From Alloacidobacterium dinghuense (GTDB lineage: Bacteria > Acidobacteriota > Terriglobia > Terriglobales > Acidobacteriaceae): DNA of 64,000 bases. Each line of letters starts with the position of its first letter. Position 1 is the first letter of the stretch. Below are positions 7,551-55,487 of this stretch, in pieces. The position numbers and the translations under genes were made by a program. The stretch is from contig NZ_CP060394.1 in NCBI RefSeq assembly GCF_014274465.1, positions 310,001 through 374,000 on the forward strand, written 5' to 3'. The notes under the pieces were generated by a model. It did no database searches. It was not told the origin of the DNA and worked only from the letters and a program-made list of their open reading frames with translations.

Positions 7551-7604
7551 GGTGTTAAGGACCCGCGCCTACCTTGTTCTTGATAGAACTCACATTTGTG
7601 GTCT

Positions 7605-7647
7605 CCCACCCTATCGCGCAACTACAGCGCGATAGGATGGGGCACCC
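7605..7647. repeat. Palindromic intergenic repeat, GGGGCACCC-tailed (copy 2)
   Basis: Arms CCTATCGCGC (7610-7619) and GCGCGATAGG (7627-7636), with outer CCCA / TGGG pairing, then GGGGCACCC ending at 7647. The stem sequence differs from copy 1 but the outer frame and tail are the same, so the stem varies while the fold is kept. Confidence 0.8.
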
Positions 7648-7713
7648 GTTGTTCGTGGCTTGTACGCAACTGCAGATCCTTCGCTCCGCTCAGGATGACT
7701 TCCCTGAGTGGGG

Positions 7714-9135: not shown

Positions 9136-9162
9136 CTGGTGGGTCCTTTGGAATTTCCCTCA

Positions 9163-9235
9163 GGGGCTACAGCCCTTTATTGCATGTCTTAAATTTGTGG
9201 TCTCCACCCTTTGCTTCGCAAAGGATGGGGCACCC
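9163..9235. repeat. GGGGCTACAGCCC hairpin and GGGGCACCC-tailed palindrome (copy 3)
   Basis: Two elements just upstream of the isomerase gene. GGGCT/AGCCC (9164-9168 / 9171-9175) resembles the hairpin at 7452. CCTTTGC (9208-9214) / GCAAAGG (9218-9224) with outer CCA/TGG pairing is followed by ATGGGGCACCC ending at 9235, the same tail as copies 1, 2 and 4. Confidence 0.75.
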
Positions 9236-9249
9236 GATATCCTGCCAAG

Positions 9250-9277
9250 CCCACATCTTTTCAAGATGTGGGCACCC
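9250..9277. repeat. Palindromic intergenic repeat, GATGTGGG-CACCC type (copy 4)
   Basis: Perfect 10-bp arms CCCACATCTT (9250-9259) and AAGATGTGGG (9263-9272), 3-base loop, tail CACCC. Nearly the same sequence as copy 1 (7522-7550), on the opposite side of the isomerase gene. Confidence 0.8.
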
Positions 9278-9282
9278 AGACA

Positions 9283-9495
9283 TTACCTTCTTACGCGCGG
9301 CCAGAAGCGGATTGTGTAGACCAGCCCAGCGATTGCCATCATGCCGCCCCACCATATCGAGGGGTGCAGGTTGAATAAGACAGGCGGATGCGCGGGAGGG
9401 TTTGCCAACTCCCAGAAACCTATTGCTGTGATGATGACGCCGTAGATGAGGAAGAGGACGCCGGCGAAAAACCAGATCGACATTGATTCGCGCAT
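9283..9495 (-). CDS. Small two-helix membrane protein next to symporter
   Basis: 70 residues with two predicted membrane helices (about 6-28 and 45-62) joined by a Pro-rich loop (ANPPAHPP) and a basic C-terminus. I do not recognise a family. It starts 9 bases after the symporter stop, so it is translated from the same message. The arrangement suggests an accessory or stabilising subunit of the sodium symporter, but that is inference from position only. Confidence 0.65.
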   Translation of the reverse strand: MRESMSIWFFAGVLFLIYGVIITAIGFWELANPPAHPPVLFNLHPSIWWGGMMAIAGLVYTIRFWPRVRR

Positions 9496-9504
9496 TTTTC
9501 TCTC

Positions 9505-39060: not shown

Positions 39061-40977
39061 ATGTCAAGGAAAACGTTTGCCAAATTCATAGTCCCGACGA
39101 TCTGCCTCGTCGTATCGGCAGTAGTGTGTGCACAAACTGGAGAGGCGCCCGCCATCCTGACAATTCAGGTCGATAAGCCTGTGTCGAAGGTGAGCCCGAC
39201 GCTATATGGGCTGATGACGGAAGAGATCAACTTCTCCTATGATGGCGGCCTCTATGCGGAGATGGTTCGCAACCGGACCTTCCGGCCTAACAGGTCGAAC
39301 GTTCCGAACTGGATCCTTGTTGAAGATGGTTCTGCGCAAGCAAGAATGAGCATCGACCAGGGCACGGGGCCAAGCGAAGCGCTTCCACACAGCCTTCGCC
39401 TTGATGTTGCCAGAGCTGATGAGTCAAATCCGGCCGGCGTTCTCAACGAAGGTTACTGGGGAATGCCGCTGCGTCCCAATACCACCTATCAAGGCTCTTT
39501 CTATGCCAAGGAAGACTCGACAGTTGTTGGGCCCGTGACGATCGGCCTCATCGCTAATCAGAGTGGAAAGGTTCTCGCCACGACTACGATTTCGGGGGTC
39601 ACCACAGACTGGAAGCAATACACCTTCACCCTAAAGACTGCAGCGATTGAGCCGTCAGCTGCAAATCACCTGGTGCTCACAGTTGCACATCCCGGCGCAC
39701 TTTGGCTAAGCCTCGTTTCGCTGTTTCCTCCTACTTACCGTGACCGAGTCAACGGCAATCGCATTGACCTGATGGAGAAGCTAGGGGCCATGCATCCCGC
39801 CTTTCTGCGTTTCCCTGGCGGCAACTATCTCGAAGGCGATCACATACCCGAGCGCTATGAGTGGAAGAAGACCATCGGACCGCTCGTTGATAGGCCGACG
39901 CATCCCAGCCCATGGCGCTATCATTCATCGGATGGTCTTGGCCTGCTTGAGTTCCTGGAATGGTGTGAAGACCTGAAGATGCAGCCGGTGCTTGCAGTCT
40001 ATGCGGGATACTCGATGGCGCAGGAGCATGTGAATCCGGGAACAGATCTTGATCCTTATGTTCAAGACGCTCTGGATGAGATTGAGTACGTCGTCGGTGG
40101 GACGGACACGAAGTGGGGTGCGGTTCGCGCGAAGAATGGACACCCGGAACCGTTCCAGCTGAACTATGTCGAAATCGGTAACGAGGATTTCTTCGATCGC
40201 TCCGGTAGTTACGATGGGCGCTATGCGCAGTTCTATAAGGTGATTAAGGCGAAATACCCTGATTTACAGCTGATCGCGACAACGCCTGTGAAAAGTATTC
40301 GCCCTGATGTAGTCGATGATCACTACTACAGGCGCGCAACAGAATTCTTCAATGACACAACGCACTACGACAAGACAGATCGCACCGGGCCCAAGATCTT
40401 TGTGGGTGAGTGGGCGACGCGTGAAGGTTCCCCGACACCGAACTTTGGTGCGGCACTGGGTGACGCCGCATGGATGACGGGGATGGAGCGGAACAGCGAC
40501 ATTATTGTGATGGCCGCGTATGCGCCGTTGTTCGTGAACGTGAATCCCGGCGGTATGCAATGGGAAACGGATCTTATCGGCTATGACGCGATGCGCAGCT
40601 ACGGTTCGCCCAGCTATTACGCGCAGGTGATGTTTGCAGATTACGTCGGCGACGAGACACTTGCATCCAGTCTGGAAAATGGAGGGCCGAAACTGTTCTA
40701 CTCGATCACGCGGGACTCGAAGGACAAGCGGCTTTATCTGAAGCTGGTGAACGCGTCTTCAAAATCGCAGACAGTCGACATCAAGTTCTCAGGCGCAAAT
40801 CTCGCGAGCACCGGAAAACTGGTGAGTTTAGAAGCGCACGACACGCAAGCTACCAACACGATCGATCAGCCTAACAATATTGTTCCGGTTGAAAGCACGC
40901 TGCCGAATGTGGGCAGCACTCTACATCACACCATGCCGGCATATTCAATTCAGGTGCTGTCGTTGGATCAGCGCTGA
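39061..40977 (+). CDS. Alpha-L-arabinofuranosidase, GH51, secreted
   Basis: 638 residues with a Sec signal (about 1-24, ending V-V-C-A-Q-T). A beta-sandwich/CBM4-like region (about 80-225) is followed by the TIM barrel and a C-terminal beta-sandwich, as in larger GH51 enzymes of plant-biomass bacteria. Acid/base Glu375 is in E-I-G-N-E and nucleophile Glu450 in V-G-E-W. F-R-F-P-G-G-N-Y (here L-R-F-P-G-G-N-Y) is also a family marker. Removes terminal alpha-L-arabinose from arabinan, arabinoxylan or arabinogalactan outside the cytoplasm, supplying the arabinose operon at 5836-12018. One operator-like motif lies 71 bases upstream and a second overlaps the first codons, so LacI-type control is likely. 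Confidence 0.93.
   Translation: MSRKTFAKFIVPTICLVVSAVVCAQTGEAPAILTIQVDKPVSKVSPTLYGLMTEEINFSYDGGLYAEMVRNRTFRPNRSNVPNWILVEDGSAQARMSIDQGTGPSEALPHSLRLDVARADESNPAGVLNEGYWGMPLRPNTTYQGSFYAKEDSTVVGPVTIGLIANQSGKVLATTTISGVTTDWKQYTFTLKTAAIEPSAANHLVLTVAHPGALWLSLVSLFPPTYRDRVNGNRIDLMEKLGAMHPAFLRFPGGNYLEGDHIPERYEWKKTIGPLVDRPTHPSPWRYHSSDGLGLLEFLEWCEDLKMQPVLAVYAGYSMAQEHVNPGTDLDPYVQDALDEIEYVVGGTDTKWGAVRAKNGHPEPFQLNYVEIGNEDFFDRSGSYDGRYAQFYKVIKAKYPDLQLIATTPVKSIRPDVVDDHYYRRATEFFNDTTHYDKTDRTGPKIFVGEWATREGSPTPNFGAALGDAAWMTGMERNSDIIVMAAYAPLFVNVNPGGMQWETDLIGYDAMRSYGSPSYYAQVMFADYVGDETLASSLENGGPKLFYSITRDSKDKRLYLKLVNASSKSQTVDIKFSGANLASTGKLVSLEAHDTQATNTIDQPNNIVPVESTLPNVGSTLHHTMPAYSIQVLSLDQR
39068..39081. promoter_or_regulatory. 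Second operator-like motif overlapping GH51 start
   Basis: GGAAAACGTTTGCC inside codons 3-7 of the GH51 gene. Contains AAACGTTT as at 12118 and matches the 45064 palindrome at 11 of 14. Centre-to-centre distance to 38977-38990 is 91 bases. Being coding sequence, it may be chance. Confidence 0.35.
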
Positions 40978-41389: not shown

Positions 41390-44300
41390 CTAGAAGAAGA
41401 ATTTCGCCCCAAGTTGCAGGCGCCGAGCGTCGTAGGACGAGGTGACTTGCCCGAAGTTCCCATCCGACGAGTTCGCGTCAATCCCCTGGAACTGGGTGTG
41501 ATTGAACGTATTGTAGGATTCGAACCGCAATTCAAGTTTTGGTCCGGCTTCGTTTGAAGTAAGCGGAATGTTCTTGAACAGCGACATGTTGAAGTTGAAG
41601 AGTCCGGGCAGGATAACCGCATCTTTTCCCGAGTTCCCGAACCCTTGATTTGTGCCACCATTCCACGGGGCGACTGGATTTGCGAAGGAGCTTGTGCTAA
41701 ACCAGGCAGTCTGCTTCTTGGGGTAGGACACACCTGTTACCTGGTTCTCACGGTTCGTAGCGCCGTTGCCACCTAGTCCAAGTGAATCAGGCCCTGTGTA
41801 GTTGATCGGCTGGGGTAGCCCCGATTGCGCGAATGTAATTCCAGAGAACACCCATCCTCCGAGGATCGTGCGCTCAGCCGTGTTTGAGCTGTGCAGGAAC
41901 CAGGGAAGATTGTAGATGTAGCTAGCGTTGAAGATGTTGCGTCGATCGAAGGCGCCAGACCCATAGTCGTAATGCGCATTGAAGGGGTTTGTAAGTTGAT
42001 TTAGATCGTTGCTCACCTCGTCGAGCTCGTGTGACCAGGTGTAGGAGAACTGCACTGTCCATCCGTGCCGGTTCTCTATACGCAAACCTGCCTGGAGTGA
42101 GTTGTAGTTGAAATTGGTTTCATTCTCCTCCTGCTGGACGCCGCTGAAGCCGGGGAAAATTCGGTACAGGTTGGCGTTTGGTTGAATGCCAAGAGCAACA
42201 TTGGCAGTGTTGGTGGCGACTGCCTGCCGTTTGGCATAACCCACCGCGGGATCGGTTAATGGCAGGGTATTAATCTGTCGATCGTCGTTCTGGTCCCAAC
42301 CCAACGAACCAACATATTGCAAGACGGCGACTATCGATGGTGCTACCTGCCGTTGTACTCCGAGGCTATACATTGCAGTTCCCGGAGGCGAGTACTGATA
42401 CTTGAGGTTGGTAAGAGTCGATGGAAATGTTTGAGATGTTGTGCTTCCAGTCAGAGCGCTGCTATTTGGGTTGGAGAAGTAAACATTGTTGGCGGAAGGC
42501 TGATAGGCAAAGGGTGGATTCAAGGCTGCGTTGTATACATCGTTGCCCTGGACACGCTCAAAGAACATGCCAAATCCGCCCCTGAGTACAGTCTTTCCGT
42601 CTCCGGTGACATCGTAGGCAAAACCGACTCTCGGCTGCCAGGTGTCGTACCGATTCTGAACGTTTCCGCGGGGGAAACCATTCACTCCGGCCTCGCGGAT
42701 GCCATTGAGGTAGAACGGCTGGTTGTTAAAGCTCGTGAGTGAAGCGGGGTTCAGGGTTCCGTCTGGATTGAGCGGATACCCTTGGGTCGTGTCGTAATCC
42801 GCGGGAACGAAATTCGCGAATTGGTCGAATCGTTCGAAGGCGTGCGGTAGTCCATCGAAGCGAAGTCCGATGTTGAGAGTCAAACGCGGAATGATTTTCC
42901 AGTTGTCGTTAGCGTAAAAGCCATAGTTATTGTTCACCCAGTGCTTGCCGGCAAGAAACTGCAGCTGAGTAAAGCTAGCGGCATCGCCCAGCAGGAAGTT
43001 GACATACGAATCCTGGGCAAAACTGCTGTTGTTGAACACTGCCGTGCCCTGCGTATTGGCCTGCAGTTGCTGATTCTTAACGGCGTGCAACCAACTAAAT
43101 CCGAACTTGAACTGATGCTTTCCATGCGTCCACGACACGTCGTCCCGAGGTTCATAACCAAAGTACGAATTTTTCCATGGGTAGTAGCTGGAACTCCAGT
43201 TGACGCTGTATGGAGCTTGCAGGTCGATCTCTGGCATACGACTTCCGACATTGTTTGCCAATGGGAAGAAGCTGCTCGCCGACCATCCGGATGGCTGCGC
43301 TGAAATGCCAACAGGATCAAGATTGATGGTGTTGCCACTGAAGAGGAACGAGGTCTCATTCAGCAGCGACGGGGTATAGGTCTGCGTGAGTTTCAAACTC
43401 GAGGACCACGAGGGGTTGAGCATGGCTGTGCCCACGGTTGGGTACGTGCTGTCACCCCACAGCGGTGGGTAGTACGTCTGGGTAACTGCATCGTGCAGGT
43501 AATGGCCACTGAACTGGAACTTCGAACTGAAGTTGTGGTCGATGCGCACGACGTCTTCACGAACGTCGGTAGGCTGGGGAATCGACGAGATGTATTGATT
43601 GGTTCCGAGGTTTGGCTTTGGGAATGTGCCCGCATTCAACTCGAGGAGTGCGTTGGGATCCATCAGGTTGGCAGGAATGGTGTTGTTCGGGAATGGCTGG
43701 CCAGGAGTCAAACCATCCTGCGTGTATAGGGCCTGCTTGGCTGGATCAGTAGTGACGGGGACGATCGGAATCTTTCCGTTAGCCGGAACTTGATATGCCA
43801 ATGACTGTCCTGCAGTCGGGAAATTCGCCGCAGCAATATCGTTCACAACGTTGGGCGAACTTCCTTGAATGAGTCTTCGCCACTCTTCATTCACAAAGAA
43901 GAATGTTTTGGTTTTTCCTTCGTTATAGACGTGGGGAATCCACACGGGGCCGCCGATGTTGAAGCCGGGTTCATTTAGACGGAACTCGGGCCGCGGTTTG
44001 CCGGCGAAGTTAATGAAGTAGTTGTTGGCGTCGTAGTCCTCATTCCGGTTGAAGTACCAGACTGCGCCATGGAAGTCGTGGGTGCCCTGTTTGAGAACCA
44101 TCAGGATGGTCCCGCCAGAGCCGATGCCGTAATCAGGGCCATAATTGCTGTCGAGCGTTTGAAATTCCGCGAGTGCGTCCATCGAGGGCAGGGAACTGAA
44201 GCAGCCGCCGCAGCCGCGGTCGTTCAGTTCGCCTCCATCCAGCATGTAGATGTTGTGGGTTACGCGGGTTCCATTGAAGCTGATACCGTTAGCGGAGGTG

Positions 44301-44827
44301 AGAGCATTCACGCCGCTAAACAACGGCAAATTATTCGATTTGCCCATGCCCAAGGCTGCAAGCGCGGTCACGTTGCGACCGTTGGTTGCCAACTGCGTGA
44401 CCTGCTGACCACTGATGAGGTTGCTGAGTTCGTTGGTTTCCGTTTGAATCTGCAGTGCGTCTGCCTGGACAGTGATCGTTTGGCCGGCAGCGCCAATCGT
44501 AAGCTTGACATCTTCTTTCAGAGTCTGGCCGGTGTTCACTGAGATGCCGGTCCTGGTGTAATTCACAAAGCCGCCCGCTGATGCGCTCAGTGTGAAATTG
44601 CCAACGCCTACGTTGGCAAACAGATAAATACCATCGTTGTTGGATACGGTTTGCCTTACCTGGCCAGTTGCAGGATTGGTAAGCGAAATGGCGGCATTCG
44701 GAACAACGGCACCGCTGGGATCCAGTACTGTTCCGGTTATGGTTGCGTTTTCCTGCGCCCAACTGCGTGGCGCAAGTGTCAGGGCGAGGATAACGACACT
44801 CGCCAATATGAATCGAGAACGAAGCAT
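41390..44827 (-). CDS. TonB-dependent receptor, Oar-like, with carboxypeptidase-regulatory domain
   Basis: 1145 residues. Signal peptide 1-24; CarboxypepD_reg beta-sandwich (about 28-112: A-T-I-T-G-T-V-L-D-P-S-G-A-V-V-P-N-A); plug domain (about 125-245, with N-G-R-N-V and the Y-M-L-D-G-G-E segment); then a large outer-membrane beta-barrel ending in aromatic F-F-F. This is the expanded Acidobacteria family of putative oligosaccharide or peptide receptors. A Cys-rich loop D-R-G-C-G-G-C-F lies in the plug. AGGAGG at 44833-44838 is five bases before the ATG. The gene is divergent from the isomerase/GH116/GTPase unit; a perfect LacI-type palindrome in the shared control region suggests carbohydrate cargo. 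Confidence 0.93.
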   Translation of the reverse strand: MLRSRFILASVVILALTLAPRSWAQENATITGTVLDPSGAVVPNAAISLTNPATGQVRQTVSNNDGIYLFANVGVGNFTLSASAGGFVNYTRTGISVNTGQTLKEDVKLTIGAAGQTITVQADALQIQTETNELSNLISGQQVTQLATNGRNVTALAALGMGKSNNLPLFSGVNALTSANGISFNGTRVTHNIYMLDGGELNDRGCGGCFSSLPSMDALAEFQTLDSNYGPDYGIGSGGTILMVLKQGTHDFHGAVWYFNRNEDYDANNYFINFAGKPRPEFRLNEPGFNIGGPVWIPHVYNEGKTKTFFFVNEEWRRLIQGSSPNVVNDIAAANFPTAGQSLAYQVPANGKIPIVPVTTDPAKQALYTQDGLTPGQPFPNNTIPANLMDPNALLELNAGTFPKPNLGTNQYISSIPQPTDVREDVVRIDHNFSSKFQFSGHYLHDAVTQTYYPPLWGDSTYPTVGTAMLNPSWSSSLKLTQTYTPSLLNETSFLFSGNTINLDPVGISAQPSGWSASSFFPLANNVGSRMPEIDLQAPYSVNWSSSYYPWKNSYFGYEPRDDVSWTHGKHQFKFGFSWLHAVKNQQLQANTQGTAVFNNSSFAQDSYVNFLLGDAASFTQLQFLAGKHWVNNNYGFYANDNWKIIPRLTLNIGLRFDGLPHAFERFDQFANFVPADYDTTQGYPLNPDGTLNPASLTSFNNQPFYLNGIREAGVNGFPRGNVQNRYDTWQPRVGFAYDVTGDGKTVLRGGFGMFFERVQGNDVYNAALNPPFAYQPSANNVYFSNPNSSALTGSTTSQTFPSTLTNLKYQYSPPGTAMYSLGVQRQVAPSIVAVLQYVGSLGWDQNDDRQINTLPLTDPAVGYAKRQAVATNTANVALGIQPNANLYRIFPGFSGVQQEENETNFNYNSLQAGLRIENRHGWTVQFSYTWSHELDEVSNDLNQLTNPFNAHYDYGSGAFDRRNIFNASYIYNLPWFLHSSNTAERTILGGWVFSGITFAQSGLPQPINYTGPDSLGLGGNGATNRENQVTGVSYPKKQTAWFSTSSFANPVAPWNGGTNQGFGNSGKDAVILPGLFNFNMSLFKNIPLTSNEAGPKLELRFESYNTFNHTQFQGIDANSSDGNFGQVTSSYDARRLQLGAKFFF

Positions 44828-45063: not shown

Positions 45064-45077
45064 GGTAAATGTTTACC
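45064..45077. promoter_or_regulatory. Palindromic LacI-family operator GGTAAATGTTTACC
   Basis: Perfect 6-bp arms GGTAAA/TTTACC around TG; the best member of the motif set in this window. A second inverted repeat, CACTT-N4-AAGTG (45051-45064), abuts it. It sits between the TonB receptor (start 44827) and the isomerase-fold gene (start 45290) and could control both. Confidence 0.65.
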
Positions 45078-45289: not shown

Positions 45290-46915
45290 ATGGCTGTAAC
45301 GAAGGACATAATCAAAGAAGTGGTGCTCATTACGAGCGGCGACCTGCGGCAGTCCGCAAATCTGGCTTGTTGGCCTGCACAAGAAGAGATGGAACGCGAA
45401 CTGACGCGAAGTCTCGAGCAGGAAGGGGTGCGCGTAAAGCGTGCTTTTCCTGTCGATCTCCTCAAAGGACACGGATTCATTTCCAGCCAGCGAATGGGCA
45501 TGGATATTTTTGCTGACATTGATCCGAAGGCGAATCTGATATTCGCCACGGCCGCCTGGCAGTATACGCATCATGTGTTGCCTGGATTACGCAGTCATCG
45601 TGGACCGATTCTTACAATTGCTAACTGGTCGGGGAAGTGGCCGGGCTTAGTTGGATTGTTGAATCTCAACGGTTCACTGGTGAAAGCCGGAGTAAAGTTC
45701 AGCTCCCTCTGGAGCGAAGACTTCAAAGACAAGTTCTTTCTCAACGGATTGCGAGCGTGGATCAGGGATAAAGAGGTTGTTCACGATACTAGCCATGTAC
45801 GCGATCTCGATGCCGGGCAACTTCCATCTGACGCGAAAAATCTCGGGACAGATCTGGCAGCTTCACTGAAGAGACGAAAGGCGATTTTAGGAGTGTTTGA
45901 TGAAGGCTGCATGGGTATGTACAACGCGATCATTGATGACGAGTTGTTGAACCCAACCGGAGTTTTCAAAGAGCGTCTCAGCCAGTCGGCGCTTGTGGCG
46001 CGGATGCGTACTGTTCAAGACGAGGAAGCGGCCGACATCCGGCATTGGCTGGACAAAAGAGGACTGCGATTTGTTACCGGTCCTGACGAGACGAGTGATC
46101 TTACGGACAAGCAGATCCTCGAGCAGTGCAAAATGTATATCGCCGCAGTTCGCATCGCGCATGAGTTCGGCTGCGATGCGATTGGCATTCAATACCAGCA
46201 GGGGTTGAAGGACATGGCGCCTGCTTCAGACCTGGTGGAAGGGCTGCTGAACAATGTAGAGCGTCCGCCTGTTTATGATGTGCAGCCGGGCAAGGAACTT
46301 TATCCGGGGCAGCCGGTACCGCATTTCAATGAAGTGGACGAGGGAGCGGGGCTCGACGCACTGGTGACGAATTTGTGCTGGAATGCGCTTCAGCTTGATC
46401 CGGCTACGACACTCCATGATGTTCGCTGGGGTGAGCACTTCACGGGCAATGGCATTGATGATTTCGTCTGGGTGCTGCAGATATCAGGGGCGGCTCCTGC
46501 AAGCCATTTTGTTGGTGGATATAAAGGAGCATCGAGCGAACGTCAGCCACCCATGTATTTTCCGCTGGGCGGGGGCACGCTGAAAGGCATCGGCAAGGCT
46601 GGGGAAATTGTCTGGAGCCGGGTGTTTGTCGAAGGGGGATCTCTTCACGTTGATATTGGCAGAGGTTCGGTGGTGGAGTTGCCTGCTGAGGAGACGGCTC
46701 GCCGATGGAGAAGCACCACTAGTCAATGGCCGCTGGTCAGCGCTATTTTTCATGGCATTACGCGAGACGCCTTCATGGCGCGGCATCGGGCGAACCATGT
46801 GAGCATCGCCTACGCGCCAAATGTTGCTGTGGCGAGCAAGGCTCTCGCGGTCAAGTCCGCGATGTTTCATGAGATGGGAGTGAAGGTTCACCTGTGTGGC
46901 GAAATCCACTTCTAA
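45290..46915 (+). CDS. Fucose/arabinose isomerase-fold protein of unknown substrate
   Basis: 541 residues from the ATG at 45290, preceded by a perfect GGAGG (45281-45285) five bases away; the frame is open for 41 more residues that look non-coding. No signal peptide, so cytoplasmic. Segments typical of the L-fucose isomerase superfamily: D-E-G-C-M-G-M-Y-N-A (metal-site region), G-C-D-A-I-G-I-Q-Y-Q, and near the end R-H-R-A-N-H-V-S-I-A-Y, where the fold places a metal-binding His. It is clearly different from the isomerase at 7714-9135. It is followed by a Tat-exported GH116 and a G3E GTPase. Sugar isomerisation is likely; the sugar cannot be named. Members of this type are often annotated only as hypothetical. 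Confidence 0.75.
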   Translation: MAVTKDIIKEVVLITSGDLRQSANLACWPAQEEMERELTRSLEQEGVRVKRAFPVDLLKGHGFISSQRMGMDIFADIDPKANLIFATAAWQYTHHVLPGLRSHRGPILTIANWSGKWPGLVGLLNLNGSLVKAGVKFSSLWSEDFKDKFFLNGLRAWIRDKEVVHDTSHVRDLDAGQLPSDAKNLGTDLAASLKRRKAILGVFDEGCMGMYNAIIDDELLNPTGVFKERLSQSALVARMRTVQDEEAADIRHWLDKRGLRFVTGPDETSDLTDKQILEQCKMYIAAVRIAHEFGCDAIGIQYQQGLKDMAPASDLVEGLLNNVERPPVYDVQPGKELYPGQPVPHFNEVDEGAGLDALVTNLCWNALQLDPATTLHDVRWGEHFTGNGIDDFVWVLQISGAAPASHFVGGYKGASSERQPPMYFPLGGGTLKGIGKAGEIVWSRVFVEGGSLHVDIGRGSVVELPAEETARRWRSTTSQWPLVSAIFHGITRDAFMARHRANHVSIAYAPNVAVASKALAVKSAMFHEMGVKVHLCGEIHF

Positions 46916-46927
46916 AGCGATCAACGA

Positions 46928-49645
46928 ATGACAGATAAGTCGAAGCTGGATCGGCGGGAATTTCTGCGGCACGCGGCTGGCGCCGTCGGCGCGTCAACCC
47001 AAATCGGACAGTGGCCCGGACAAGAGCTGAGCCAAGATGAGGAGGCCAAGAGCAGGCGAGCCGTAACTACGCAGGCGGATGAGGAAATTCATTTCCCGAG
47101 GCAGTTTCGTGGTCGCCAGCTCAAAATGATTTCTTTCCCGTTGGGTGGAGTAGCCGCTGGCAGCATTGGCTTAGGCGGACGCGGACAGCTTTGCAATTGG
47201 GAGATTTTTAATCGTCCGAATAAGGGATTTCGCCCGCCCTACGCGTTTGCATCCATTTGGGTACAGGCGGGAAGTCAGAAACCTGTTGCCCGTGTTCTCG
47301 AGTCGCGTCTTCTTCCACCATATGAGGGACAGGACGGGCTGGGCTCAGAAAACGCTCCCGGTCTGAGTCGTCTTGAAGCTGCGGTTTTTACCGGGGGATA
47401 TCCTCTGGCTCACATTGACTTTCAGGATCGATCACTGCCGGTGCAAGTGGAACTCGAAGCCTTCTCGCCATTCATTCCTCATGAGCCGGACGATTCAGGA
47501 TTACCCGTAGCTATTCTGCGCTATCGCGTAACAAATTCTGGTCACGGGGCGGCAAAAGTCAGCATTGCATATTCCCTGGACAATCCCGTGAAGACAAGCG
47601 AGAGGAATCATGACAAGCGCCTCAATGAGTTTCGGTCAACGGGGAGTGCAGTAGGGCTTTTGATGTCCAATCCTGGTTTGGCGGCTGACGATCCTATGGC
47701 TGGCAGTTTCGCATTGGCGGCGATGCCGAGTGCCGGCGCCCAGGTCTCACATTGGGTCGGATGGCCAAAAGGTCGGTGGTGGAATTCGCCGCTGCTCTTC
47801 TGGGACCAGTTTTCGAAAGAAGGAGATTTAGGAGCGCAGCCAGAGCCCTTTGATTCGGTTGGAGTCCTGTGTTTGCAGAACACGATCCTGCCGGGGCATT
47901 CTGCAAGTTTTCAATTCATACTAAGCTGGCATTTTCCGAACCGCACGCCAGAGTGGTGCGGTTGGACGGCGCCTCCGGGAGAAGAGAAGACGGTTATCGG
48001 CAATTACTATGCCACCCGCTTCAAAGATGCCTGGGAATCTGTAACCTACGCAGCCAGGAATCTGGATAGCCTGGAATCGCGAACACGGATGTTTGTCAAT
48101 GCGTTCAACGTAAGCACACTGCCTGCTGCGATAAAGGATGCGGCCAGTGCAAACCTCTCGACGTTAGGGACAACAACGTGTTTCCTCACTGCCGACGGGG
48201 AATTCCACGGCTTTGAAGGCAGCGACGACAAGCTGGGGTGTTGCTTCGGAAACTGCGCGCATGTGTGGAACTACGAGACGGCGACGACGTTCCTCTTTCC
48301 TTCGTTTGCAAGGTCTCTGCGCAAAAGTGCCTTTGGCTATTCCATGGACGAAGCAGGCGCGATTCATTTTCGACAACTGTTGCCCGACGGCAAGGCGCGT
48401 TCCGGATTTGCGGCGGCGGATGGCCAGATGGGTCAGATCATCCACGCGTGGCTCGACTGGAAGCTTTCCGGAGACGACGCATGGTTGCGTGGCATCTGGC
48501 CGCGCGTGAAAAAGGCTCTCGAGTTTGCCTGGGCGCCGGACGGATGGGATGCAAATCGCGATGGCGTTCTAGAAGGCGTCCAACACAACACATACGACGT
48601 TGAGTTTTACGGTCCGAATCCGATGTGCGGCATTTATTATCTGGGCGCGTTGCATGCATGCGATGAGATGGCGCGAGCTGTAGGCGACAACTCCTCCGCG
48701 AGCGAATACGAACGTCTGTTTGAAGAAGGGCAACGGTGGATCGACACGAATTTGTTTAATGGCGAATATTACGTCCAGAAGATTCGTGGATTCCGAAAGG
48801 AGGAGATCGCACCGAATTTGACCAGTAACATGGGCTCAGAAAACACAGAAGCCCCCGAGTATCAGGTAGGCAACGGTTGTCTGGTTGATCAACTGGTCGG
48901 GCAGTATCTGGTTGATGTGGGAGGCATGGGAGCGCTGACATCTCAAGAAAATATACGCACAACCCTGCGATCTATTTACCGGTATAACCACAAGCGATCG
49001 CTTGCCGACCACGACAATGTAGAGCGCACGTACGCGCTCAACGAAGAATCGGCAGTCGTTGTCTGTGACTACGGAAAGGCCGAACGACCGCATATTCCGT
49101 TCCCGTACTATGCCGAGGCGTGGACGGGACTGGAATACACAATTGCGGCATTGATGATTTCGTGGGGCATGGCTGATGAGGGGATCGAGATCGTGCAGAA
49201 TGCCCGCCTGCGCTTCGACGGCGAAAAACGGAATCCATGGGACGAAGCCGAGTGTGGACATCATTATGCTCGAGCCATGTCATCCTGGTCGGCCTTCATG
49301 TCGATCAGCGGATTCAGCTATGACGGTACGAGAGCAGCGGTAGTCGCAACGCCACGACTTCCTCATTCCGGATTCAAGTGCTTCTGGGCAACTGGAACGG
49401 GTTGGGGCACATTTTCCTATCAAGGCCAGGCAAGTGCTGTGCAATTCAGACTGAAAGTTCTCGCAGGTAATCTTCGCTGCCGCTCCCTTGAGATCTCAGC
49501 GGCGGGAACAGCAGCAATTGTGCACTACGGCGGAGAAATATTGCTGAGTCATGCAGCGAAATCTGGTGAGAATTTGATCGTGACGCTCCAGGACGTAGCG
49601 AATCTGTCGGCTGGTAGCGAACTGCGAATTGAAGCACTGATATGA
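46928..49645 (+). CDS. GH116 glycoside hydrolase (GBA2-like), Tat-exported
   Basis: 905 residues. Twin-arginine signal D-R-R-E-F-L-R-H-A-A-G-A. N-terminal beta-sandwich (Glyco_hydr_116N: F-P-L-G-G-V-A-A-G-S-I-G-L-G-G-R-G) followed by the (alpha/alpha)6 catalytic domain. Q-H-N-T-Y-D-V-E-F-Y-G-P-N holds the likely nucleophile Glu, and E-A-E-C-G-H-H-Y-A-R-A-M-S-S-W lies in the acid/base region. GH116 members act as beta-glucosidases, beta-xylosidases or glucosylceramidases. Twelve bases after the isomerase-fold gene and overlapping the GTPase start (ATGA). Export to the periplasm in folded form via Tat would suit a cofactor- or metal-loaded enzyme; GH116 domains can bind calcium. Substrate unknown. 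Confidence 0.9.
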   Translation: MTDKSKLDRREFLRHAAGAVGASTQIGQWPGQELSQDEEAKSRRAVTTQADEEIHFPRQFRGRQLKMISFPLGGVAAGSIGLGGRGQLCNWEIFNRPNKGFRPPYAFASIWVQAGSQKPVARVLESRLLPPYEGQDGLGSENAPGLSRLEAAVFTGGYPLAHIDFQDRSLPVQVELEAFSPFIPHEPDDSGLPVAILRYRVTNSGHGAAKVSIAYSLDNPVKTSERNHDKRLNEFRSTGSAVGLLMSNPGLAADDPMAGSFALAAMPSAGAQVSHWVGWPKGRWWNSPLLFWDQFSKEGDLGAQPEPFDSVGVLCLQNTILPGHSASFQFILSWHFPNRTPEWCGWTAPPGEEKTVIGNYYATRFKDAWESVTYAARNLDSLESRTRMFVNAFNVSTLPAAIKDAASANLSTLGTTTCFLTADGEFHGFEGSDDKLGCCFGNCAHVWNYETATTFLFPSFARSLRKSAFGYSMDEAGAIHFRQLLPDGKARSGFAAADGQMGQIIHAWLDWKLSGDDAWLRGIWPRVKKALEFAWAPDGWDANRDGVLEGVQHNTYDVEFYGPNPMCGIYYLGALHACDEMARAVGDNSSASEYERLFEEGQRWIDTNLFNGEYYVQKIRGFRKEEIAPNLTSNMGSENTEAPEYQVGNGCLVDQLVGQYLVDVGGMGALTSQENIRTTLRSIYRYNHKRSLADHDNVERTYALNEESAVVVCDYGKAERPHIPFPYYAEAWTGLEYTIAALMISWGMADEGIEIVQNARLRFDGEKRNPWDEAECGHHYARAMSSWSAFMSISGFSYDGTRAAVVATPRLPHSGFKCFWATGTGWGTFSYQGQASAVQFRLKVLAGNLRCRSLEISAAGTAAIVHYGGEILLSHAAKSGENLIVTLQDVANLSAGSELRIEALI

Positions 49646-50709
49646 ACGCACCACTTCAAGTGAAGAGACCATGGATTGTAGTCGTGGGCGGCTTTCTGGG
49701 AGCAGGAAAGACGAGCCTCATTCTGACTGCTGCCGACCTTCTTGCGCGGAAAGGATTTCGTAGTGCGGTCACTCTGAATGACCAGGGCAGCGAATTAGTA
49801 GATACACGTCATGCAGAAATGCGCGGTATTACCTCCGGAGAAGTCACAGGAGGATGCTTCTGCTGCAAGTTTTCTGAATTGATTGGAGTGATGGATAAAA
49901 TACGCGGGCATTCGCCAGATGTCATCTTTGCGGAGCCCGTTGGGAGTTGCACTGACCTCGTGGCGACGGTCCTTTCTCCGCTCTTGCAAGAGTTCGGCAG
50001 TTACAGAATTGCGCCGTTGACTGTGCTCGTTGATCCAGCGAGAGTTGCCGTATTGTTTACCAGTGATGGCGATAACGACAACGCATTCCTGTTTCGGAAG
50101 CAGCTACAGGAAGCCGATCTGGTTTGTATCACCAAATCGGACATAAATCAGAGGGATGTAGCTCCCATTTCGAACATAAAGACCAGATATGTAAGTGCAA
50201 AGACCGGTCAAGGCGTCCAGGCATGGCTGGATGAAATTCTATCTGGTGATCTCATAGCAGGTGCAAAATCACTGGAGATTGACTATGAGCGATATGCACA
50301 AGCGGAGGCATCCTTAGCATGGCTCAATCTTAGCTTCAGTTTTGAGCCTGAGACTCCGTTTACTCCAGCTTCGGTAATTGGTCCTTTTATGGATCATCTA
50401 GATCACGCACTTACGGCCGCGGATATTGCAATTGCGCATTTGAAGATTTTTGGCAACTCGTCCTCCGGATGGTTAAAGGCGGCGATATGCGCCAATGGAG
50501 AGGAGCCTGTTGTAGAGGGAGACTTAGATGCTTCGCCGGCGCCCATACATGAGGTGGTTTTGAATTTGCGTGCAACCGGAGACCCGGCACAAGTGCGAGA
50601 TGTTGTTGAAGAGCAATTGCAATATCTCGCGGGCAAGAGATACCACGAGCGGCTGGATTGCTTTAGCCCCGCGCCCCCAAAGCCAGAACGAAGGAATCTG
50701 AGGTTGTAG
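49642..50709 (+). CDS. G3E-family GTPase (CobW/COG0523, putative metal chaperone)
   Basis: 355 residues. Walker A G-G-F-L-G-A-G-K-T-S (16-25), the family's metal-binding C-x-C-C as C-F-C-C (72-75), switch region with E-P-V-G near 98, and G4 motif T-K-S-D (164-167, Thr in place of the usual Asn). The C-terminal half (about 215-350) is a divergent CobW_C-like domain without a His-rich tail. COG0523 GTPases deliver Zn, Co, Mn or Fe to partner enzymes. The ATG overlaps the GH116 stop (ATGA), so it is translated with the glycosidase and isomerase-fold genes; a target among these two is the simplest reading. No cobalamin or nitrile hydratase gene is nearby. Confidence 0.85.
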   Translation: MNAPLQVKRPWIVVVGGFLGAGKTSLILTAADLLARKGFRSAVTLNDQGSELVDTRHAEMRGITSGEVTGGCFCCKFSELIGVMDKIRGHSPDVIFAEPVGSCTDLVATVLSPLLQEFGSYRIAPLTVLVDPARVAVLFTSDGDNDNAFLFRKQLQEADLVCITKSDINQRDVAPISNIKTRYVSAKTGQGVQAWLDEILSGDLIAGAKSLEIDYERYAQAEASLAWLNLSFSFEPETPFTPASVIGPFMDHLDHALTAADIAIAHLKIFGNSSSGWLKAAICANGEEPVVEGDLDASPAPIHEVVLNLRATGDPAQVRDVVEEQLQYLAGKRYHERLDCFSPAPPKPERRNLRL

Positions 50710-51022
50710 GGATACGCGAGGGGATCGCGCCATGAACCAGACGCGATCGGCGGTCGTTCTCTCGACAATATGTCGGTAATACAACTTCCTGAAGGATCTA
50801 CAACCATAGACACTTGCAAATCATGTAATTACTCGGCTGTCAATCGGGGAAACGAGCACACACTGTCACTTCTGCCAGTTTTCTGCCGGGCCCCATAGGC
50901 ATACGTTAGCTGCGTCAGCAGTCGTTCAGTGGCTGTGCTCTGAGTTTTCGAACTTACTGCTGGGAACAGTGTTGCTGTTTGTGAGTGCCCTTCCTCAGAG
51001 TATAGAAACCGGGAGTGTGTTC
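50710..51022. other. Control region of the RND efflux operon
   Basis: About 310 bases without a gene. CGACA-ATA-TGTCG (50763-50775) is a perfect-arm palindrome of the size bound by small repressors and may be an operator, although it lies some 250 bases before the adaptor start and close to the end of the GTPase gene. No TetR- or MarR-type gene is adjacent. Confidence 0.45.
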
Positions 51023-52291
51023 ATGCGGACTACGCGTGCGTTTCCCTTGTATGGATCGTCGCTGCTCGATTTGAAACAACGCAAGTGGACGACCCAATTG
51101 GTAAAGAGCCCAGACTGGGGCTCGGTGGCTATCGGATTATTTTTACTTGCGACGCTTGTTGGTTGCGCCAAAGAAGAACCGAAGGCTAAGCCGAGTCCGC
51201 CTGATGTCACGGTAGCAGATGTCGTGCAACAGGATGTTCCTGTTTACGGGGAGTGGGTGGCTCAACTGAACGGTCCGGTGAATGCCGAGATCACTCCAAA
51301 GGTGCAGGGCTACCTGCTGCAGCAGAATTATCAGAATGGCTTCTTCGTTAAGAAAGGCCAGCTTTTATTTACTCTCGATCCGCGCCAGTACGAGGCTGAG
51401 GTAGACCAGGCCAAAGCGCAGGTAGGTACCGCCGAGGCCAATTTGGCCAAGGCTAACAACGACGTCGCGCGCGATACCCCGCTGGCGGCCCAAAAGGCAA
51501 TCGCACAGAGAGACCTCGACACCGACTTAACCACCCAGCAGGCCATGCAGTCACAGCTGCAGGCCGCAAAGGCCAGTCAGGCGAACGCGGAGCTGAATCT
51601 TACCTGGACGAAAGTCTATTCACCAATCGACGGCATTGCTGGCGTTTCAAATTCGCAGATAGGCGATCTGGTGGGAACCAGCACGAAGATGGTGACTGTG
51701 TCACAGGTAAATCCCATCTGGGCTTACTTCAACCCGAGCGAGAGCCTTTTTCTCAAGTTTGCGCCAGAGGTTACGGCATTTATTACGGGGAGGCTCCCTA
51801 GGGGGAGTCGACCCCAGATGCCTGTCGAGCTGATCCAGGCGAATGATATCCCGTATTCCGCGAAGGGCAGAATCATTTATGTGAATCGGCAGGTTGGTAC
51901 AGGAACCGGCACGATCCAAATGGCCGCTGAATTTCCTAATCCGCAGGCTGTGCTCCGTCCAGGTGGATACGGCCGCGTGCGAATCAAAGTGGCTGACAAT
52001 GGCAACGCATTACTTGTGCCACAACCAGCTGTCATTGAAGTGCAATCGGATTACATGATTGTTGTGCTCAGTCCTGAAAACAAGGCAATGTTTCGGCCTG
52101 TAAAGGTGGGCGAACGAGTTGGGCCGAATTGGGTCATCACTGAGGGGCTGAAGCCGGGCGAGAAGGTTGTGGTCGAGGGCATTGAGAGGCTATCGTTGGC
52201 CGTCGCGGCAATGCCTCAGCTGGCAAAAGAGGGAATTCCCGTCAATCCGAAGCCATACGTGCCAGTTGCAGCCATTGGCGGAGGCAACTGA
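51023..52291 (+). CDS. RND efflux periplasmic adaptor, lipoprotein
   Basis: 422 residues from the ATG at 51023, which has GGGAG seven bases upstream; a TTG at 50969 is open but lacks this. Signal ends in lipobox L-V-G-C, so it is a lipoprotein held to the inner membrane. Order: lipoyl/barrel-sandwich halves (V-N-A-E-I-T-P-K-V-Q-G-Y and V-Y-S-P-I-D-G-I-A-G) around an alpha-helical hairpin (A-Q-V-G-T-A-E-A-N-L-A-K), then beta-barrel and membrane-proximal domains. AcrA/MexA family. Bridges the pump at 52294 and the channel at 55488. Unusually long, basic n-region of the signal. Confidence 0.93.
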   Translation: MRTTRAFPLYGSSLLDLKQRKWTTQLVKSPDWGSVAIGLFLLATLVGCAKEEPKAKPSPPDVTVADVVQQDVPVYGEWVAQLNGPVNAEITPKVQGYLLQQNYQNGFFVKKGQLLFTLDPRQYEAEVDQAKAQVGTAEANLAKANNDVARDTPLAAQKAIAQRDLDTDLTTQQAMQSQLQAAKASQANAELNLTWTKVYSPIDGIAGVSNSQIGDLVGTSTKMVTVSQVNPIWAYFNPSESLFLKFAPEVTAFITGRLPRGSRPQMPVELIQANDIPYSAKGRIIYVNRQVGTGTGTIQMAAEFPNPQAVLRPGGYGRVRIKVADNGNALLVPQPAVIEVQSDYMIVVLSPENKAMFRPVKVGERVGPNWVITEGLKPGEKVVVEGIERLSLAVAAMPQLAKEGIPVNPKPYVPVAAIGGGN

Positions 52292-52293
52292 TC

Positions 52294-55200
52294 ATGGCGA
52301 AATTCTTCATCAATCGACCCATCGTCGCGATGGTCATTGCGATTTTGATGGTGCTGGTCGGCGTGATCGCAACTCTCGAGCTTCCCATAGCGCAGTTTCC
52401 CGAGATTGCCGACCCGATGATCCAAGTGAAAGCCACCTATCCCGGTGCGGACGCGCAGACAATTGCTCAGTCGGTTGCAACTCCGATCGAGCAGCAGATG
52501 TCGGGTGTCTCCGGCATGAACTACATGTATTCATTGAGTGCGAGTTCCGGCGGCACGATGGGCCTCTATGTAGATTTTGCGTTAGGGACCAACATCAACA
52601 CCGACCAGATTCTGGCCCAGATGCGCAGCGGGCAGGCCAACTCGCAATTGCCATCTGAGGTGACCCAGCAAGGCGTGATCGTGCAGCCTGGGACGACTGC
52701 GCCATTTATGTTGCTCGACCTCTATTCTTCCGCCGGTACATACGACAACATTTTCCTGGCTAATTACGCCACCATCAATTTGCAGTATGCGCTGACTCGC
52801 ATTCAGGGAGTTGGCCAGGTTCAGATATTCGGCGCGGGACCCTATGCCATGCGCATATGGGTAAACCCTGATCGGCTAGCGAGCCTAGGTGTGACCGTGT
52901 CTGACATCACGAAGGCGGTCCAGGCTCAGAACAAGGTAAATCCTGCAGGCCAGATTGGAGGCGAGCCCGTCCCGGCCGGTCAGCAATTTACTTACAACGT
53001 GCGGGCTCCTGGCCGTTTACCTACGGCCCAGGAGTTTGGTGAGATCGTTGTCCGCGCAACGCCTGACGGATCGATTCTGCGGCTGAAGGATGTGGCGCGT
53101 ATCGAGCTGGGATCCCAATATTATTCGTATCAAGCGCGATTGGGAGTAGTGGGAGAAGGTAAGCCTGCACAATCCGCGGCCCTCGTCGCGCTATACCTCA
53201 CGCCCGGCAGCAACGCGCTGCAGACGCGAAGTAACGTCCTCAAGATGATGCAGGAAGCAAAAGGGCGGTTCCCGCAGGGCTTGGACTACATCGTAGCCCT
53301 TGACACGACCCTTGCCGTCAGCGCCGGTATCCACGAAATCTACAAGACACTGATAGAAGCTCTGATCCTAGTCATCATCGTCGTGTACATTTTCCTGCAG
53401 GGTTGGAGGGCAACGCTGATTCCGCTGCTCGCCGTACCCGTTTCACTGATCGGAACCTTTGTCGTCTTTCCGATACTCGGGTTCTCGATTAATACGCTAT
53501 CGCTTCTCGGGCTTGTTCTTGCGATTGGGCTGGTTGTGGACGATGCCATCGTCGTCGTAGAGGCGGTGGAACTCCATATCGAGCATGGGTTGAATCCCCA
53601 CGACGCTGCCGAGAAAGCGATGGAGGAGGTTTCGTCACCAGTCATTGCCATCGCACTCATTCTGGCCGCGGTGTTTCTTCCCACGGCCTTCGTTCCCGGC
53701 ATAACCGGACAGCTCTATAAGCAATTCGCAGTCACCATCGCGATTTCAGTGCTCTTCTCTGCATTTAATGCTCTGACGCTCAGCCCAGCGCTTGCCTCCT
53801 TGTTGTTGCGCCCTAGAAAAGAGGCGCGAGGGCCCCTCGGCATGTTCTTCCGCGGGTTCAACCGTGTCTTCGGGCATGCGACGGACGGGTACGTGAATGT
53901 GTGCAGGCACCTGATCCACAAGGCAATCTTTGCGTTTCTCATCCTCGGCCTGATCGTCGTTGGCGCCGGCTACTACGGGAAGAAAATCCCGACGAGCTTT
54001 CTACCTGATGAAGACCAGGGGTACCTGTACGGCGGGTTGCAATTGCCTAATGCGGCTTCGCTCCAACGCTCGTCGGATGCGGCACGCGCAGTTGAAAAAA
54101 TCATCATGGACACGCCCGGCGTGCAATATGTCAGCACGGTCGTCGGATACAGCCTGTTAAGCGGTGTTAACGCAACGTACAGCTCCTTCTTCTTTATCTC
54201 GCTGAAGCCTTGGGAAGAACGCAAGACTCCAGAGGAAAGCTACAACGGGATCAAGCGCCATCTGCAGGAAGCGCTCTCAAAAGATCCATCGGGGATTGCA
54301 TTTTCTTTCCCCCCGCCGGCCATTCCGGGTGTAGGCACTTCTGGAGGCGCTACTTTCATTCTTGAAGACAGGTCCGGTGGAAGTGTTGAGCTTCTTGCAA
54401 AAAATGCGCGGCTCTTTTGGGAGGAAGCGCGAAAACGACCGGAACTGGCGGGAGTCTTGACGACCGCACTGCTTAGCGTTCCTCAAGTTGGAGTCAACGT
54501 CGACAACGCCAAGGCCATGACTCAGCAGATCCAACTGGGTGACCTGTATCAAACGGTGCAGACATTTATGGGCGGGTCGCTGGTTAACTTTTTCAACCGC
54601 TTTGGCTTGCAGTGGCAGGTATATGTTCAGGCCGATGGCGATTTCCGGACCAACGCGGAGAATCTCGGCAAGTTTTACGTCAGGAACGCATCGGGTGACA
54701 TGGTTCCTTTGAGTACGCTTACTAGCACATATCCGCGCAGTGGCCCAGAGTTTCTCATGCGCTACAACCTGTTCAATTGCGTACAGATTAATGCCTCGGC
54801 GGCACCCGGTTACAGTTCCGGTCAGGTCATGGCAGCACTGGAAGACGTGTTCCACAAGACAATGCCCAGTCAGATGGGATTCGATTACATGGGAATGTCC
54901 TACCAGGAGCAAAAGGCGGCACAGGGTGTTTCTCCCGCTGTTATTTTTGGTCTGGCATTCTTCGTCGTCTTTCTCATCATGGCTGCGCAATACGAGAGTT
55001 GGACCTTGCCTTTCAGCGTATTGCTGGGTGTGCCGATCGCTGTGTTTGGAGCGCTCTTCGCACTTTATTACCGCGAGCTTGAAAATAATGTGTTTGCCCA
55101 GATCGGGCTAGTCATGCTGATTGGACTATCGGCCAAGAATGCCATTCTGATTGTGGAATTTGCCAAGCTCGAGTATGACAAAGGCAAGCCACTCATGGAA

Positions 55201-55485
55201 GCGTCCCTGACCGGCGCCAGATTGAGACTGCGACCCATTCTGATGACTGCATTCGCCTTCATTTTGGGTTGTGTGCCGTTGTATACGGCGACCGGTGCAG
55301 GCGCTATCTCGCGCCAGGTGCTGGGAACCGCCGTGATCGGGGGCATGCTCGCCTCCACCGTCATCGCAATCTTCTTCGTTCCGGTCTTCTTTGATGTAGT
55401 GGAACGCTTCGGCAACCTCTTCAGTAAAGAGAAAGAAAAACCGCCAGCTACTTTGCCAACCGTCACGCACTCGGAGGGGGACTAG
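52294..55485 (+). CDS. RND multidrug efflux transporter (HAE1, AcrB-like)
   Basis: 1063 residues, twelve membrane helices and two large periplasmic loops. Proton-relay residues are intact: the Asp pair in G-L-V-V-D-D-A-I-V-V-V-E-A-V-E (helix 4) and the Lys in G-L-S-A-K-N-A-I-L-I-V-E-F-A (helix 10). Starts M-A-K-F-F-I-N-R-P-I-V-A as typical for the hydrophobe/amphiphile exporters. Pumps drugs or other amphiphiles from the periplasm or inner membrane to the outside, driven by protons. Two bases after the adaptor stop; the outer-membrane factor follows two bases later. Confidence 0.96.
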   Translation: MAKFFINRPIVAMVIAILMVLVGVIATLELPIAQFPEIADPMIQVKATYPGADAQTIAQSVATPIEQQMSGVSGMNYMYSLSASSGGTMGLYVDFALGTNINTDQILAQMRSGQANSQLPSEVTQQGVIVQPGTTAPFMLLDLYSSAGTYDNIFLANYATINLQYALTRIQGVGQVQIFGAGPYAMRIWVNPDRLASLGVTVSDITKAVQAQNKVNPAGQIGGEPVPAGQQFTYNVRAPGRLPTAQEFGEIVVRATPDGSILRLKDVARIELGSQYYSYQARLGVVGEGKPAQSAALVALYLTPGSNALQTRSNVLKMMQEAKGRFPQGLDYIVALDTTLAVSAGIHEIYKTLIEALILVIIVVYIFLQGWRATLIPLLAVPVSLIGTFVVFPILGFSINTLSLLGLVLAIGLVVDDAIVVVEAVELHIEHGLNPHDAAEKAMEEVSSPVIAIALILAAVFLPTAFVPGITGQLYKQFAVTIAISVLFSAFNALTLSPALASLLLRPRKEARGPLGMFFRGFNRVFGHATDGYVNVCRHLIHKAIFAFLILGLIVVGAGYYGKKIPTSFLPDEDQGYLYGGLQLPNAASLQRSSDAARAVEKIIMDTPGVQYVSTVVGYSLLSGVNATYSSFFFISLKPWEERKTPEESYNGIKRHLQEALSKDPSGIAFSFPPPAIPGVGTSGGATFILEDRSGGSVELLAKNARLFWEEARKRPELAGVLTTALLSVPQVGVNVDNAKAMTQQIQLGDLYQTVQTFMGGSLVNFFNRFGLQWQVYVQADGDFRTNAENLGKFYVRNASGDMVPLSTLTSTYPRSGPEFLMRYNLFNCVQINASAAPGYSSGQVMAALEDVFHKTMPSQMGFDYMGMSYQEQKAAQGVSPAVIFGLAFFVVFLIMAAQYESWTLPFSVLLGVPIAVFGALFALYYRELENNVFAQIGLVMLIGLSAKNAILIVEFAKLEYDKGKPLMEASLTGARLRLRPILMTAFAFILGCVPLYTATGAGAISRQVLGTAVIGGMLASTVIAIFFVPVFFDVVERFGNLFSKEKEKPPATLPTVTHSEGD

Positions 55486-55487
55486 CC

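Follow-up and report, generated by a model that had tools for sequence, protein, structure and literature searches.

A COG0523-family GTPase gene recurrently paired with a GH116 subfamily 4-type glycosidase gene in Alloacidobacterium dinghuense and its relatives: a possible metal-loading accessory with a candidate tri-cysteine site

Many members of the COG0523 (CobW) family of G3E GTPases have unknown clients, and prediction of these clients from gene clusters has been suggested (PMC9164220). A described case of this kind is Nha3, the activator of Fe-type nitrile hydratase, a G3E GTPase with a CxCC motif that is encoded beside its one client (PMC2770081, PMC9164220). Here we analysed a stretch of 64,000 nucleotides (nt) from Alloacidobacterium dinghuense (assembly GCF_014274465.1, contig NZ_CP060394.1, positions 310,001 to 374,000 of the forward strand), hereafter the window, in which a COG0523-family GTPase gene directly follows a gene for a glycosidase of glycoside hydrolase family 116 (GH116), itself preceded by a gene for an L-fucose/D-arabinose-isomerase-type protein (Table 1). 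The GTPase is similar to Nha3 in family, CxCC motif and location beside a single proposed client, but differs in that this neighbour is a glycosidase instead of nitrile hydratase. All three reading frames are open, with a gap of 12 bases between the first two genes and an ATGA overlap between the second and third, as a preliminary description of the locus had reported; gene starts and overlaps were inferred from sequence. That description treated the three genes as one module, whereas, in the genomes whose neighbourhoods were compared, the three genes adjoin one another in the window alone. Rather, the conserved unit is the pair formed by the GH116 and GTPase genes.

The closest characterized relative of the window glycosidase is ExoMA2 from Microbacterium arabinogalactanolyticum, an exo-β-D-arabinofuranosidase of GH116 subfamily 4 (GH116-4) with the catalytic residues E431 and D557, for which R483 and H446 are named in the ExoMA2 paper as the key difference from the β-glucosidase TxGH116. 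ExoMA2 (8ic6) is the best match of the window enzyme in the PDB, with 454 bits over most of the length, compared with 82 bits for the β-glucosidase branch. Two Pfam domains exceed their cut-offs, namely GH116N (Glyco_hydr_116N; 190.7 bits) and DUF608 (141.6 bits), with no further Pfam match. The equivalents of ExoMA2 E431, H446, R483 and D557 are E430, H445, R482 and D557 (by manual count, ExoMA2 residue numbers are shifted by 4 in the PDB alignment), and these are conserved in all 78 usable GH116-4 rows, where L279 (GH116 truncated before the site) and L320 (wrong frame) were left out of both the count and the tree. The window enzyme therefore shares the nucleophile, the acid/base and the two specificity residues with ExoMA2 and, judged by its sequence, is probably an exo-β-D-arabinofuranosidase. 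A second, deeply separate GH116 lineage (GH116b; L122, L260, L261 and L262) has approximately 26% identity to the window enzyme and the same residue set in 0/7 rows; D and T/N replace the D-arabinofuranose-specific H and R, such that its substrate probably differs from that of the window-type enzyme.

The N-terminus of the window GH116 carries the twin-arginine motif DRREFLR at residues 8–14, followed by a hydrophobic stretch, which agrees with the signal for twin-arginine translocation (Tat) noted previously and makes the enzyme a predicted Tat substrate. As a mark of GTPase-linked enzymes the motif was rejected, since nearly all relatives have it with or without the GTPase: an RRx-hydrophobic motif is present in 22/23 rows with an adjacent GTPase, 14/14 with a co-occurring GTPase, 30/33 other, 9/10 cysteine-lost and 7/7 deep-lineage rows, and the rows that miss it are truncated (L282, L110 and L287), in the wrong frame (L320) or read RRDW (L310).

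The window GTPase matches Pfam cobW with 73.7 bits (cut-off 20.7). Its Walker A motif GFLGAGKT and its GCFCC segment are intact, in line with the C-F-C-C reported previously (residues 72–75), and C72, C74 and C75 as well as the glycines, K and T of Walker A are invariant in 10/10 aligned rows. Matches to the NCBIfam equivalogs for CobW, PRK11537, HypB, ZigA and the CobW-related selenoprotein all fall below their cut-offs (best 64.8 versus 180 bits), and no nitrile hydratase gene lies beside the GTPase gene, whose neighbours are the GH116 and isomerase-type genes upstream and an efflux set downstream. The window-type GTPases, whether or not they adjoin a GH116 gene, form a single clade of 32 rows (SH-like support 95), in a tree that includes two identical copies of one genome and excludes genome G624; an 11-row IQ-TREE analysis of the clade gave support of 95/99.

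The association of the two genes was assessed in a sample of 399 genomes of the class, with E ≤1e-40 for the GTPase subfamily and E ≤1e-60 for GH116-4, and with five GTPase and at most two GH116-4 candidates scored per genome, such that further copies may be missed. The subfamily GTPase was found in 48/399 genomes and GH116-4 in 94/399, the latter in 51 of the 135 genera. By neighbourhood, the 48 GTPase genomes divide into 27 of the window type, four with the GTPase beside GH116b, 15 of a GcvH-operon type and two others; G542 was placed in the GcvH-operon type by genus only, while all other neighbourhoods were examined. GH116-4 is present in 27/27 window-type genomes, which span 21 genera (manual count), compared with 3/4 of the GH116b-linked, 1/15 of the GcvH-operon type and 1/2 of the others. 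Against the 67/372 genomes that have GH116-4 in the absence of a window-type GTPase, the Fisher test gives 4e-19, uncorrected for kinship. One genome, G624, is uncertain in type, its GTPase being broken by stops with the two pieces best matching different queries; without it, the values are 26/26 and 2e-18, likewise uncorrected. No GTPase of the window subfamily was found in 62 GH116-4 genomes of the sample.

The GTPase and GH116-4 genes are neighbours in 18 of the 27 window-type genomes, and they occur in three arrangements, with the GTPase gene after the GH116 gene, before it (L133, L276 and L280) or divergent from it (L135 and L283, which are one genome), suggesting that the neighbourhood has been rebuilt and kept. 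The three closest GTPase matches in a scan of named genomes all adjoin GH116, in the order GTPase-GH116 (L133), GH116-GTPase (L134) and divergent (L135). A 4-base overlap of stop and start is possible in 14 of the 23 same-strand GH116-GTPase pairs examined. Among 150 relatives, GH116 (E ≤0.001, subfamilies mixed) was found in 44 and the GTPase (E <1e-40) in 13; eight of these GTPases adjoin GH116 (seven of the window type and one distant pair in G121), and five, all from genus g92, lie in the GcvH-type operon. The GH116b lineage has its own adjacent GTPase in four genomes. Thus, beyond close relatives the pair is conserved and the trio is not.

A candidate site for a metal is provided by three cysteines of the GH116 enzyme. 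C438 and C439 sit 8 and 9 residues past the nucleophile E430, and C776 resides within the conserved segment DEAECGHHYAR. All three are intact in each of the 36 usable rows whose genomes carry a window-type GTPase (22/22 adjacent, 14/14 co-occurring); L279, cut off ahead of the site, would make 37 rows. The 42 rows without it are a subset of the GH116-4 proteins found, hand-picked across the identity range, and include L249 (from a genome with a sister-clade GTPase) and L111 (from G121, with a deep-lineage GTPase); here, 31 are intact, nine have lost all three cysteines, one (L310) has lost two and one has lost C438 only. Where all three are lost, C439 is always replaced by glycine and C776 always by tyrosine or tryptophan. 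These losses represent four events on the GH116 tree, all among rows without the GTPase, and no other column of the 78-row alignment divides intact from lost rows as cleanly. Because the groups were defined by the cysteine columns, the finding is that three sequence-distant residues go together, not that they differ. Retention of the cysteines is associated with the GTPase at the level of rows (p = 0.001; L249 was omitted from one row-level Fisher run only). In GH116b, the three cysteines together with C651 are intact in 7/7 rows, four with and three without a GTPase. No further C, H, D or E position cleanly marks the GTPase-linked enzymes, the frequency difference between 22 adjacent and 17 other rows exceeding 0.45 only at columns 418 (C), 432 (C) and 395 (E).

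We propose that the GTPase is a dedicated accessory of GH116 that loads a metal at the tri-cysteine site before Tat export, a proposal that we judge to stand at about even chances. As in other COG0523 proteins, the CxCC motif would hold a transition metal, most likely zinc, which the GTPase would transfer with the use of GTP to the newly made and folded GH116 in the cytoplasm, a step that the enzyme may need. The likely landing site would be the cluster of C438, C439 and C776. The loaded enzyme would then be exported by Tat and remove terminal β-D-arabinofuranose from D-arabinan-like glycans, and the isomerase-type protein would convert D-arabinose to D-ribulose in the same route without being a regular client of the GTPase. 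We favour a metal loader because, throughout the sample, the GTPase shares its genome with GH116-4, is often placed for translational coupling and was not found where GH116 has lost the cysteines. A broader formulation is more speculative and we advance it only tentatively: a tri-cysteine metal site on the rim of the catalytic pocket, filled in the cytoplasm by a dedicated COG0523 GTPase ahead of Tat export, would make metalloglycosidases of both GH116-4 and the deep GH116b lineage, and these would be the first glycosidases among the clients of G3E metallochaperones.

Several observations weigh against metal loading by the GTPase. When the cysteine losses are counted as events, the link to the GTPase is not significant (0.084) and could be due to chance. 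The 31 of 42 rows that retain all three cysteines in the absence of a window-type GTPase indicate that the site itself does not require the GTPase, and the cysteines persist in the three GH116b rows that lack a GTPase. Joint loss might also be seen if two of the cysteines formed a disulfide and the third were free. The GTPase gene lies apart from GH116 in 9/27 genomes, including G645 (at a contig end) and G624, and the label for GTPase presence switches 14 times on the GH116 tree, suggesting that the partnership has often been lost or regained. In addition, ExoMA2 has a serine where the window enzyme has C438; it is active when made in E. coli, with no GTPase mentioned in the accessible part of the ExoMA2 paper, the main text of which, in that part, does not refer to zinc or calcium and brings in metal only for affinity purification. 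The AlphaFold model of GH116, built from a 4-sequence alignment, reached a mean predicted local distance difference test (pLDDT) score of 45.3 and is unusable for inspection of the site, and the model of the isomerase-type protein, from a 2-sequence alignment, is also too poor for use (mean pLDDT 35.6); the low scores are probably due to the shallow alignments.

The isomerase-type protein is less easily placed than its two neighbours. In the Pfam scan, it remained below the curated cut-offs for Fucose_iso_C (27.2 bits, cut-off 29.3) and Fucose_iso_N1 (24.0 bits, cut-off 28), and a six-frame genome search gave 30.3 bits for Fucose_iso_C, slightly over the cut-off; among the aligned relatives, window included, Fucose_iso_C is matched by 21/21 and Fucose_iso_N1 by 19/21 (E ≤0.01). 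E348, D377 and H503 are invariant in 21/21 rows and are candidate metal ligands, mapped by eye on the basis of FNEVD-, LHDVR- and ANH-type motifs that resemble the segments of E. coli FucI containing E337, D361 and H528, the metal-binding residues of that enzyme (PMC6894278). Unlike these motifs around the three Mn2+ ligands and the weak domain matches, the sequence as a whole does not lead to FucI: the profile alignment of the family to E. coli FucI is non-significant (hhalign probability 1.4%), and no PDB chain matched the protein, either as a single sequence (E 0.001) or as a profile (E 0.01).

The isomerase-type gene was found in 27/150 relatives (26 of them strong matches) and in 19/27 window-type-GTPase genomes of the class sample, or 21/30 when three further relatives are added, and is missing from G096. 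Its presence in 19/27 suggests that it is part of the same biology as the GH116-GTPase pair, although among these 30 genomes it adjoins the pair only in that of the window. G003 has the gene no more than 9 kb from the pair, with a DUF2961 gene between them. The metagenome-assembled genome of L153 (3191-5951) has an isomerase-type gene directly followed by a frameshift-split GTPase gene, sister to the window-type clade (support 87), and also has GH116-4, on another contig. Genes for DUF2961, which we take to be GH172, adjoin GH116 in L111 and L114, lie one gene off in L275 and are present in 27/30 GTPase-bearing genomes, a figure without a background rate. According to the ExoMA2 paper, GH172 includes exo-α-D-arabinofuranosidases. 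Taken together, the co-occurrence of the isomerase-type gene and the DUF2961 genes suggests that the substrates are D-arabinofuranosides and the product is D-arabinose.

As an alternative, the GTPase could serve the isomerase-type protein, which would be a divalent-metal enzyme, with GH116 nearby only through the shared D-arabinose route; the preliminary description had allowed for either client. The conserved metal-ligand motifs (mapped by eye), contiguity with the pair in the window, the short distance in G003 and the position directly before the sister-clade GTPase in L153 are consistent with this, as is the enrichment of the gene (19/27 GTPase genomes versus 26 strong matches in 150 relatives). 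The activity of one FucI rises 7.4-fold with added Mn2+, but the FucI crystals acquired Mn2+ from solution (PMC6894278). Moreover, the gene is missing from 8/27 GTPase genomes of the class sample as well as from G096, touches the GTPase gene nowhere in the 30-genome set beyond the window's own genome, and only 6/26 relatives that have it also have a window-type GTPase. We therefore consider the isomerase-type protein an improbable client and the case for it weaker than that for GH116, which was the part of the earlier suggestion that stood (27/27 genomes, neighbours in 18/27).

Other explanations keep GH116 as a partner but dispense with metal transfer, or keep the metal but dispense with a dedicated client. 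The GTPase might aid the folding of GH116 or its preparation for Tat, as quality control in the manner of a redox-enzyme chaperone, which would suit the constant pairing with an exported enzyme, the possible translational coupling and the lack of a reported metal in the accessible text on ExoMA2. Such a role is, however, at odds with the intact CxCC and G3E motifs of the window GTPase, and the same Tat motif is present in nearly all GH116 relatives that lack the GTPase. We know of no COG0523 protein that acts as a pure folding factor, and overall we regard this role as unlikely. The GTPase might instead be a zinc-sparing factor that acts only in metal shortage on several clients and is located by chance in carbohydrate operons. 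A facultative GTPase, absent from 62 GH116-4 genomes, and the nine window-type GTPases away from GH116, some of which lie beside other sugar genes, such as those for GH42 or a PfkB kinase, would fit. Yet GH116-4 is present in all 27 window-type genomes, and such tracking of a single glycosidase subfamily is not expected of a general zinc chaperone; we find this explanation rather improbable. Finally, the pair might simply have been inherited and moved together without functional connection, as the single clade of window-type GTPases would allow; three arrangements, repeated loss, non-adjacent co-occurrence and the distinct GTPase found beside a second GH116 lineage all speak against this, which makes it very improbable.

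If the GTPase does load a metal onto GH116, a glycosidase not known to need one may carry a cysteine-bound metal, and a family thought to consist of plain acid/base glycosidases would become metal-dependent. The proposal would also offer one reason for the folded export of GH116 through Tat, and D-arabinan breakdown in Acidobacteriota would gain a maturation step. For COG0523, it links one clade to one predicted client with a named candidate site, and the relatives that lost the cysteines constitute a natural control. In the open-access full text searched, we found no paper linking a COG0523/CobW metallochaperone with a glycoside hydrolase or DUF608, and the 2009 survey of COG0523 contains, in its main text, no word beginning with glycosid or glycosyl (PMC2770081). 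Zinc-coordinated cysteines are described for the β-L-arabinofuranosidases of GH127 and GH146 in clan GH-P (PMC10850190), indicating that such sites exist in glycosidases. In those enzymes, however, the cysteine is the nucleophile, whereas a glutamate has this role in GH116, where zinc is a proposal only. Membership of the window enzyme in clan GH-P was rejected on the basis of the glutamate nucleophile in 78/78 GH116-4 rows and the presence of Pfam GH116 domains only.

Table 1. Positions of the three genes, their motifs and flanking elements in the window.
Feature	Position	Strand	Evidence
Isomerase-type gene, L-fucose/D-arabinose-isomerase-type protein (541 aa)	45290..46915	+	Open reading frame, weak Pfam matches, motif mapping by eye
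GH116 subfamily-4-type glycosidase (905 aa), probable exo-β-D-arabinofuranosidase	46928..49645	+	Pfam, PDB match, alignments
G3E GTPase, COG0523 (CobW) family (355 aa)	49642..50709	+	Pfam, motifs, trees
ATGA, 4-base overlap of GH116 stop and GTPase start	49642..49645	+	Sequence
GH116 N-terminal region with twin-arginine motif DRREFLR	46928..47017	+	Sequence; motif in nearly all relatives
GH116 catalytic nucleophile E430 (ExoMA2 E431)	48215..48217	+	Alignment to ExoMA2
GH116 C438-C439, first half of proposed tri-cysteine site	48239..48244	+	Alignments
GH116 catalytic acid/base D557 (ExoMA2 D557)	48596..48598	+	Alignment to ExoMA2
GH116 C776, second half of proposed tri-cysteine site	49253..49255	+	Alignments
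GTPase Walker A, GGFLGAGKTS	49687..49716	+	Sequence, alignment
GTPase CxCC motif, C72-F-C74-C75	49855..49866	+	Sequence, alignment
GGTAAATGTTTACC, near-palindrome between receptor gene and isomerase-type gene, putative operator	45064..45077	+	One match in window versus 0.04 expected
TonB-type outer-membrane receptor, divergent	41390..44827	-	OMP_b-brl_4 domain

Related GTPases of the subfamily occur in other settings. One recurrent operon, with domains checked on L130, encodes an aminotransferase-V/cysteine-desulfurase-like protein, a GcvH-like protein, the GTPase, a 122-residue protein without a Pfam match, a 4Fe-4S protein and a radical SAM protein. It was seen in Acidobacteriota and Planctomycetota and partly in Verrucomicrobiota (L130, L231-L239, L263-L266, L268-L270, L289 and others), with only part of the gene set seen at some loci, and may represent an undescribed cofactor-assembly system. 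Other subfamily GTPases adjoin MIP-type channels (L149 7134-7985, L240 10100-10984) or an ArsR-family regulator (L141 5641-5958), and one is near a URO-D/corrinoid-methyltransferase-like protein (L155 5019-6374).

Within the window, the start of the isomerase-type gene is assigned to the ATG at 45290, which follows a GGGAGG ribosome site, with an alternative in-frame GTG at 45167. The TonB-type receptor, previously assigned to the module as its own, does lie next to the three genes, but its gene is transcribed divergently. On the 3' side of the GTPase gene, a separate efflux set (50969-56879) encodes HlyD-type, AcrB-type and outer-membrane efflux proteins. No Rfam family reached its gathering threshold in the window, and no tRNA genes were found there. 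On the other side of the receptor gene, an α-L-arabinofuranosidase-type protein (ASD1 and Alpha-L-AF_C) is encoded at 39061-40977 (+), such that the neighbourhood may also process L-arabinofuranosides. A second sugar-isomerase cluster at 5836-11244 (-) comprises genes for an FGGY kinase, a 473-residue Fucose_iso_C protein (97.7 bits) and a sodium:solute symporter, and this cluster could provide a D-ribulose kinase step. Strong Fucose_iso_C matches of this kind (>90 bits) are present in 12/13 genomes searched in six frames.

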